From assembly GCA_021161545.1 (NCBI GenBank), contig JAGHAJ010000246.1:1-7812 (forward strand): a DNA stretch of 7,812 nt, given 5' to 3'. Position numbers and translations under genes: made by a program. Shown piece after piece: positions 1,080 to 3,152 of this stretch. Positions within the stretch are counted from its first letter, which is position 1. Each line of letters begins with the position of its first letter. The notes beneath the pieces are model-generated. The model was not told the DNA's origin, did no database searches, and worked only from the letters and a program-made list of their open reading frames with translations. This DNA comes from Synergistota bacterium (GTDB lineage: Bacteria > Synergistota > JAGHAJ01).

Positions 1080-2357
1080 ATGGGGATGATTGTGGGAATT
1101 TTCGCAAGGGAGATTTTAGATTCAAGGGGTAACCCTACGGTAGAAGTAGATGTATCCTTAGAAAGTGGAGTTGTAGGAAGGGCTGCTGTACCGTCTGGGG
1201 CATCTACAGGTACATTCGAAGCGCTGGAGCTCAGAGACAAAGACCCAAAGAGGTATAACGGTAAAGGTGTCCTAAAAGCAGTGGACAATATAAATAATGC
1301 AATCGCTCCTGAAATCGTAGGAATGGACTCACTGGAACAGGTAACCATAGACAAAAGGATGATAGAACTTGACGGCACACCGGACAAGAGCAAACTTGGA
1401 GCAAACGCAATACTTGGGGTATCTCTCGCTTGTGCGCGGGCATCAGCAGAGGAACTCAGATTACCCCTATACAAATATATCGGAGGGACAAATGGGAAGC
1501 TATTACCTGTACCCATGATGAATGTCTTAAACGGTGGTAAACATGCAGACAACAATGTAGATTTACAGGAGTTCATGATAGTTCCAGTAGGAGGTGGTTC
1601 CTTCAAGGAAGCCCTGCGGATAGGAGCAGAAGTATACCACACACTAAAATCTACACTCAAAGAGATGGGGCTATCAACGGCCGTGGGAGACGAAGGAGGA
1701 TTTGCACCAAACCTCAAGTCCAACGAGGAACCATTTAAGCTACTTATGAAAGCCATAGAAAAGGCCGGCTACAAACCTGGTGTTGACGTTGTCCTTGCAA
1801 TAGACCCTGCGTCATCTGAATTCTTCAAAGATGGAAAATACATACTCAAAGCTGACAACAGAGAGCTCACATCCGAAGAGATGGTAGATTTCTACGAAAA
1901 GCTCGTAGAGACTTACCCTGCTATAGTATCCATAGAAGACGGACTTGCAGAGGAAGACTGGGAAGGCTGGAAGATACTCACAGAGCGACTTGGAAAAAAG
2001 ATACAGCTTGTGGGAGATGACATCTTCGTGACGAACCCTGTAAGGGTACAGAAAGGCATAGATATGGGCGTTGCAAATTCCGTCCTGATAAAGCTCAACC
2101 AAATAGGAACACTAACAGAGACACTGGATGTCATAGAACTCGCAAAGAAAAACGGATATAAAGCTGTAGTATCCCATCGCTCCGGAGAAACAGATGATAC
2201 ATTCATCGCCGACCTCGTAGTTGCAACAAACCTTGGGCAGATAAAGACAGGAGCACCTGCACGAATAGAAAGAGTAGTAAAGTATAACCAGCTATTGAGA
2301 ATAGAAGAAGAGCTCGGAGAGGTTGCCAAGTTTGCCGGAATGAGCAACTATAGATAA
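1080..2357 (+). CDS. eno: Enolase (phosphopyruvate hydratase)
   Basis: Cytoplasmic glycolytic enzyme that interconverts 2-phosphoglycerate and phosphoenolpyruvate. At 425 residues it is full length for a bacterial enolase. The N-terminal domain opens with [15 protein letters not shown] (residues 9-23), followed by the mobile substrate loop SGAST (39-43). Expected active-site residues are present: H155 in GGKHADNN, the QE pair at 163-164, general acid E205 in GDEGGF, Mg ligands D242 (IDPASSEF), E286 (SIEDGL) and D313 (GDDIFVTN), catalytic base K338 (IKLNQIG), SHRSGETDD (365-373) and K389. The ATG at 1080 fits the GGAAAGGGG at 1061-1069; an in-frame ATG at 1086 would be too far from it. It is the only plus-strand protein gene here, divergent from the unknown gene and overlapping the final histidine-operon gene by 66 bases at its 3' end. 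Confidence 0.98.
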
Positions 2358-3152
2358 GGCATCCTTCAAAGAGGGGGCTACAAAATCTGCTCCCTCTTCC
2401 GCAAATTTCCTGGCCTTTTTGCAACTATCATATATTCCGCAAAACAACGTTTCTACACTTCCTTTGTTGCTGCGATAGTTCTGAACAAGCGCAAGGTCAT
2501 CCATACCATCTCCAAAATAAATAGCTAAATTAGTCGGCATATATTCAAACAACATCTCTAATGCACGGGAGTCCGGCTTTTTTACACCTTTATCGGTATG
2601 AATAACCCTCGACATATCTATCTTCTCCTTCCACCCCAAAATGTTCAAGGCAAGTATAGATTCCTTTTCGTTTCTCCCCGTAACTATACCAAACTCAATC
2701 CCTTTGGGAATATCGGAAAGCTCAAATAATACCACCTCATTATTATACAAACCTTCCTTAAGCCACCTCTGAGGTCTAAATCCAAAAAGAAACTCACAGG
2801 CATCAATCCCACCATATATCTCCTTACACATCCTTCTTACCATAATTACCTCTTCCTGCGCAATGTCACAGAGTTCAAAGACCCTCCTCACGCCACAACC
2901 GTCAAGCATACGGACAAACTCTCCAATGTCAGTTGCACATCGATACTTGTAAAATCCATATAGAGCAGTCGCAATATCCCAATCATCGTTAAAGCCTCTT
3001 ATTTGCTTAAATAACAGTATTTCTTCAAGTGACACATCAACACCAAGGAGCATCCTTACAGCTTCCTGAACCGTCCTATAGTAAGAATTCCTCACATCCA
3101 GCAAAACACCATCTATGTCGAAGACGAAGGATAATCTTGCTTTTTCTTCCAC
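2292..3152 (-). CDS. HAD-superfamily phosphatase, last gene of the his operon; candidate histidinol-phosphatase
   Basis: A 286-residue haloacid-dehalogenase-type hydrolase with all four motifs: FDIDGVLLD with nucleophile D12 and acid/base D14, VTGR with T158, KKPDS with the motif-III lysine at 191 or 192, and FGDGMDD with metal ligands D215-D219. The insert between motifs I and II (about 25-150) carries GFNDDWD (53-59), which recalls the HAD subfamily of TIGR01548; that assignment is from memory. The start is GTG at 3152, set by GGGAGGT (3164-3158) five bases upstream. It overlaps hisIE by 40 bases and is co-directional with the whole operon. The operon encodes no other phosphatase and HisB lacks that domain, so conversion of histidinol phosphate to histidinol is the natural inferred role. 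Another small phosphate ester remains possible. The last 21 codons lie antisense to the end of eno. Confidence 0.9.
2369..2398 (+). terminator. Hairpin just past eno, candidate 3' end signal
   Basis: Bases 2369-2378 (AAGAGGGGGC) pair with 2389-2398 (GCTCCCTCTT) to form a ten-base-pair stem with one G-U pair and a ten-base loop. It starts 12 bases after the enolase stop codon, a typical place for a terminator or an RNA-stabilising 3' stem. The G-U pair becomes a C/A mismatch on the opposite strand, so the stem suits enolase RNA better than operon RNA. There is no U-tract directly after it; a T5 run appears only at 2416-2420. It may therefore be a non-canonical terminator or an exonuclease barrier. 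It lies wholly inside the coding sequence of the convergent HAD gene. Confidence 0.45.

Follow-up and report, generated by a model that had tools for sequence, protein, structure and literature searches.

Which enzyme removes the phosphate from histidinol phosphate in an organism whose histidine operon ends not with a classical histidinol-phosphate phosphatase (HolPase) but with a gene of the HAD superfamily? The stretch of DNA analysed here (the window, 7,812 nucleotides) is the whole of contig C75 of a Synergistota MAG with a completeness of 82% (288 contigs, 1.58 Mb in total). On its minus strand the genes follow the order hisD-C-B-H-A-F-IE and then the HAD gene, and every gene abuts or overlaps its neighbour, see Table 1. 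The initial annotation had described the HAD gene as closing an otherwise pure histidine operon and HisB as the dehydratase alone. Profile searches confirm all seven his genes, and HisB, with its 192 residues, is the dehydratase alone, without a HisB-N domain. Two further genes of the pathway, hisZ and hisG, are adjacent on contig C35 of the same MAG, which leaves the phosphatase step as the only one without another assigned gene. From the comparisons below we consider it very probable that the product of the HAD gene is the HolPase of this organism.

Table 1. Features of the histidine operon in the window, listed in the direction of transcription, with the evidence for each (E-values for profile matches).
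Feature	Coordinates	Strand	Evidence
hisD, last 130 codons only, truncated at the contig end (its enzyme acts on the proposed product)	7420..7812	-	TIGR00069 5.9e-43, profile positions 270-393 of 393
hisC, histidinol-phosphate aminotransferase (forms the proposed substrate)	6374..7423	-	TIGR01141 6e-96
hisB, dehydratase only, without HisB-N domain	5806..6384	-	PF00475 7.3e-61, residues 30-173 of 192
hisH	5216..5809	-	TIGR01855 6.6e-68
hisA	4502..5215	-	TIGR00007 2.7e-66
hisF	3751..4515	-	TIGR00735 2.2e-113
hisIE (PR-AMP cyclohydrolase / PR-ATP pyrophosphatase), 40-base overlap with the HAD gene	3113..3757	-	NCBIfam PRK02759 4.4e-80
Ribosome-binding site GGGAGGTAGAAA, directly 5' of the HAD-gene GTG, within hisIE	3153..3166	-	sequence
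C1-capped HAD subclass IA phosphatase, proposed HolPase, last his-operon gene	2292..3152	-	motifs, profiles, model

Elsewhere in the window, a tRNA-Val (GAC) lies at 184-258 (+), with a perfect TTGACA-17-TATAAT promoter match (12/12) upstream of it (region 145-258). Between this tRNA and the enolase gene there is an ORF of up to 286 residues at 265-1125 (-), without a match in Pfam, NCBIfam or PDB, which likely starts further inside, giving about 245 residues.

The HAD gene is an ORF of 286 residues with a GTG start codon. The GTG is preceded by GGAGG, and GGGAGGTAGAAA is a good ribosome site. The overlap with hisIE is exactly the 40 bases claimed in the initial annotation (3113-3152), and translation of the two genes may be coupled through it. 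The word "fused", used there for the position of the gene in the operon, does not apply, since the gene overlaps hisIE and is joined to nothing. At the 3' end the last 66 bases overlap the convergent enolase gene, which ends at 2357, an overlap absent from the initial annotation. The final 21 HAD codons (2292-2357) are thus antisense to the end of enolase, and it is in this tail that the structure model has low confidence.

The encoded protein contains D12-I-D14-G, T158-G-R, K192-P and G214-D-G-x-x-D219, i.e. the complete motif set that had been claimed, in the order that HAD subclass IA requires. Pfam finds Hydrolase (5.8e-9) and HAD_2 (3.2e-7), and neither a PHP nor an Inositol_P domain. The best NCBIfam match is TIGR01548 (HAD-SF-IA-hyp1), with an E-value of 1.5e-17 and a full-length alignment (profile positions 3-195 of 197), at 63.8 bits, below the curated cut-off of 140.2. 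Against the HisB-N models TIGR01261 and TIGR01656 the protein had no hit up to E 0.1. The same motif set is present in homologues from 34 of the 60 other Synergistota genomes, which places the gene far beyond chance. According to the AlphaFold model (mean pLDDT 93.2), a helical cap (helices 20-137) is inserted between motif I (11-18) and motif II (156-159), and on this model the protein is a C1-capped member of HAD subclass IA. The nearest folds include phosphoglycolate phosphatases and beta-phosphoglucomutase. E. coli HisB-N is absent among the best 50 structural matches, which by itself proves nothing.

A classical HolPase elsewhere in the genome was considered and is not supported. The search for hisB-N, hisJ/hisK and hisN proposed in the initial annotation returned none: there is no Inositol_P protein, and hence no HisN, at E 0.01, PolX and DnaE account for both PHP proteins, and the single HisB-N-like match is a truncated gene of the GmhB type. 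This gene end (G000:C92, L056 2267-3070, -) carries about 160 extra C-terminal residues without a Pfam match, an extension that is missing from its orthologues of about 200 residues in family f3. With the MAG at 82% completeness, the part not recovered could encode another HolPase, and the nearest well-covered relatives therefore carry more weight. In three genomes of family f3 (G002, G004 and G006, 96-99% complete) the HAD gene directly follows hisIE, and neither HisJ nor HisN is found above the cut-off.

To see the pattern in the phylum as a whole, 61 Synergistota genomes were scored for the HAD, hisB and HisJ. HisJ was counted above the TIGR01856 cut-off, and three borderline HAD matches (E 5e-4 or weaker) were left out. 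Among the 55 genomes with hisB, 32 have the HAD without HisJ, 20 have HisJ without the HAD, two have both and one has neither. In other words, HisJ is absent above the cut-off in 32 of the 34 genomes with hisB and the HAD, and present in 20 of the 21 with hisB and no HAD. The HAD is also absent in five of the six genomes without hisB, and HisN was not found above the cut-off in any of the 61. The two enzymes are complementary across Synergistota. The Fisher test of HAD against HisJ gives a p-value of 9e-12 by genome, inflated by the relatedness of the genomes, and of 0.01 by genus, a value that is no lower because many HisJ genomes belong to one genus. The exceptions are G038 and G040 (both enzymes), G039 (HAD without hisB) and G058 (hisB with neither enzyme). 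The last of these (L131; 1.2 Mb, 94% complete) has a his operon, and neither the HAD nor HisJ passes the cut-off.

The position of the gene was compared in the same way. The HAD is near his genes in 14 of the 35 HAD-bearing Synergistota genomes, that of the window included, away from them in 20, and at a contig end in one. The survey of homologues suggested in the initial annotation thus finds his linkage in 13 of the 34 other HAD-bearing genomes of the phylum, and in archaeal his operons as well. The HAD is immediately 3' of hisIE in the window, in f3 (L036-L038) and in f7 (L039, L041), and it adjoins hisC, close to hisB, at eight loci (L050, L053, L055, L060, L061, L063, L064, L068). In G045 and G046 (genus g26) and G049 (g27), loci L123-L125, the operon has the same order and HisJ directly follows hisIE; in the G049 stretch hisD and hisH were not detected. 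The HisJ proteins in this slot all pass the TIGR01856 cut-off. Two unrelated phosphatases therefore alternate in one operon slot in Synergistota, a clean example of such an exchange. As HisJ is a known HolPase family, this swap speaks more strongly than any other result for the two having the same function.

Could the HAD instead act on another substrate, in house-cleaning or on a sugar phosphate, and stand in the operon by chance, while some other protein is the HolPase? Subclass IA holds many phosphatases of broad specificity, the nearest folds named above are enzymes of other substrates, and his linkage is lacking in the 20 genomes just mentioned. However, linkage recurs in several families and domains, the gene tends to be missing from genomes that lack hisB or possess HisJ, and it changes places with HisJ after hisIE, all of which make this explanation improbable. 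The same holds, more strongly, for the proposal that the HolPase is the HisB-N/GmhB-like HAD whose 5' end is cut by the end of contig C92. It matches the "histidinol-phosphate phosphatase" domain model TIGR01656 with 49.6 of the 84 bits needed, and the orthologue in G004, which is complete, exceeds the threshold with 102.7, but the model also covers GmhB. The G004 orthologue scores best as a heptose-bisphosphate phosphatase (131.8 bits) and reaches only 72.1 of the 140 bits that the hisB_Nterm equivalog requires. Its neighbourhood includes fliD-like and NeuB/PseI-type (flagellar, sialic-acid-type) genes, and the occurrence of this type of HAD in the phylum does not track hisB. We regard it as a very improbable HolPase.

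A SerB-like (HAD-IB) or other unlinked phosphatase could also perform the step, as in the Proteobacteria of Price et al. 2018, and the genome has two PF12710 matches. One is a weak HAD-IB protein (TIGR01490, 32.9 of 98.3) whose gene adjoins a UbiA-like one; the second belongs to HAD-IA and is encoded next to a phosphofructokinase-like gene (both neighbours named by eye). Neither is his-linked, so that there is hardly any chance that one of them is the enzyme sought. The HolPase assignment of the operon-borne HAD, which the initial annotation had offered as probable, thus gains strong comparative support from the operon, the complementarity with HisJ and the slot swap, with histidinol phosphate as the predicted substrate.

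The family extends well beyond Synergistota. When genome contigs were scanned, homologues turned up in Nitrososphaeria, Altiarchaeales, a Euryarchaeota MAG, Gastranaerophilales, Haloferax, Sulfobacillus, Acidobacteria and others. In Nitrososphaeria they lie beside hisB, mostly between hisC and hisB, in Altiarchaeales and the Euryarchaeota MAG near hisD, and in Gastranaerophilales the order is hisC-HAD-hisB; for the Sulfobacillus and Acidobacteria homologues no his linkage was found. Distant HADs of the TIGR01548 type next to hisB were seen at seven Nitrososphaeria loci (L082, L085, L090, L096, L098, L103, L104), flanked by hisC on the other side wherever the stretch includes hisC. This protein is likely to serve ammonia-oxidising archaea as their HolPase.

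Each of the 44 homologues in the scan gave a match to TIGR01548, an NCBIfam model without assigned function. Invariant among them are DxD, GR, KP, GD/D and one asparagine of the cap, N55 in full-length numbering (one less in the numbering of the alignment tool). F54 and D57 are nearly invariant. The cap signature of the family is FN[DN]D, and its motif II reads TGR. The identity of the window protein to the homologues is only about 21-38%, and in their tree it is not firmly placed, sitting on a long branch and within no starred set. This spread over many phyla rules out a recruitment special to this genome. We think it somewhat more probable than the opposite that the TIGR01548-like FN[DN]D-cap family is a separate, ancient and widespread HolPase class of Synergistota, Nitrososphaeria, haloarchaea, Altiarchaeales and Gastranaerophilales, and that this class and HisJ have replaced one another repeatedly.

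The Haloferax member (L081) scores 223.6 bits against TIGR01548, over the cut-off of 140.2. It is followed by a small ORF and then by an NADPH-F420 reductase-like (npdG-like) gene, named by eye. In Haloferax volcanii npdG is HVO_0433 (PMC8305020), from which we infer by synteny that L081 corresponds to HVO_0431. Table 5 of PMC4300041 reports histidine auxotrophy for two identical transposon mutants of HVO_0431, and the gene is a proposed candidate to close the single gap that remains in the histidine pathway of haloarchaea (PMC8305020). In that Table 5 the insertion coordinate is 1,198,248 for HVO_0431 and 1,198,243, five bases away, for HVO_1312, whereas HVO_0449 lies at 399,114. The coordinate printed for HVO_0431 is far from the expected place of this gene, does not fit the HVO numbering and is probably a table error, so the genetic link to histidine auxotrophy needs rechecking.

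In the proposed reaction L-histidinol phosphate, the product of HisC of the same operon, would be attacked at its phosphate by Asp12, with Asp14 as the acid/base. Lys192 and Asp215/Asp219 would hold the phosphate and the metal of a metal-dependent enzyme, and substrate selection would fall to the helical C1 cap with its FNDD signature (residues 54-57). The histidinol product would then pass to HisD. Both the substrate and the roles of single residues are inferred, and the substrate specificity of HAD enzymes drifts easily. If the assignment is true, the one missing histidine step is filled in a phylum of bacteria and probably also in several groups of archaea, TIGR01548, a curated family still named "hypothetical" in NCBIfam, gains a function, and automatic predictions of a histidine requirement in such organisms are corrected.

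A stand-alone HolPase of the HAD type is a known kind of enzyme, and for subclass IA in this role there is a genetic hint in one archaeon. Our literature searches found no biochemical proof for a subclass IA HAD as HolPase, and no paper on the HolPase of Synergistetes. The window protein finds its best match, in structure (Z 24.2, with 231 residues aligned) as well as in sequence (profile E 4.7e-31), in a phosphatase from Thermococcus thioreducens, Tt82 (PDB 6iah), which has the same C1 cap but FGDD in place of FNDD. According to Lee et al. 2008, as cited in PMC5516325, Thermococcus onnurineus has a monofunctional HAD-type HolPase, which by that description, irrespective of subclass, is a stand-alone HAD like the window protein. 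HVO_0431 shares with the window protein the assignment to TIGR01548 by profile, the motif set and an FNxD cap signature; in contrast, it is only about 30% identical and lies 3 kb from hisE, not in a full his operon. The SerB-like HolPases of four Proteobacteria (Price et al. 2018, PMC5764234) were also recruited to this step from the HAD superfamily, but they are phosphoserine-phosphatase-like and not of the TIGR01548 type.

The PHP-type HolPases HisJ and HisK are unrelated in fold to the window protein, and HisJ takes the same slot after hisIE in other Synergistota, i.e. a non-orthologous replacement. HisB-N, of E. coli and Salmonella, belongs to HAD subclass IIIA (TIGR01662/TIGR01656). It uses HAD chemistry for the same reaction as proposed here, but it has no C1 cap and is fused to the dehydratase, whereas the window protein is C1-capped and stands alone. 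The cap does differ from that of HisB-N, as the initial annotation stated when it suggested a separate recruitment, but the family is old and widespread and not peculiar to this genome. With its subclass IA architecture, set against subclass IIIA of HisB-N and the SerB-like branch, the window protein would represent a distinct HAD lineage in the proposed HolPase role.
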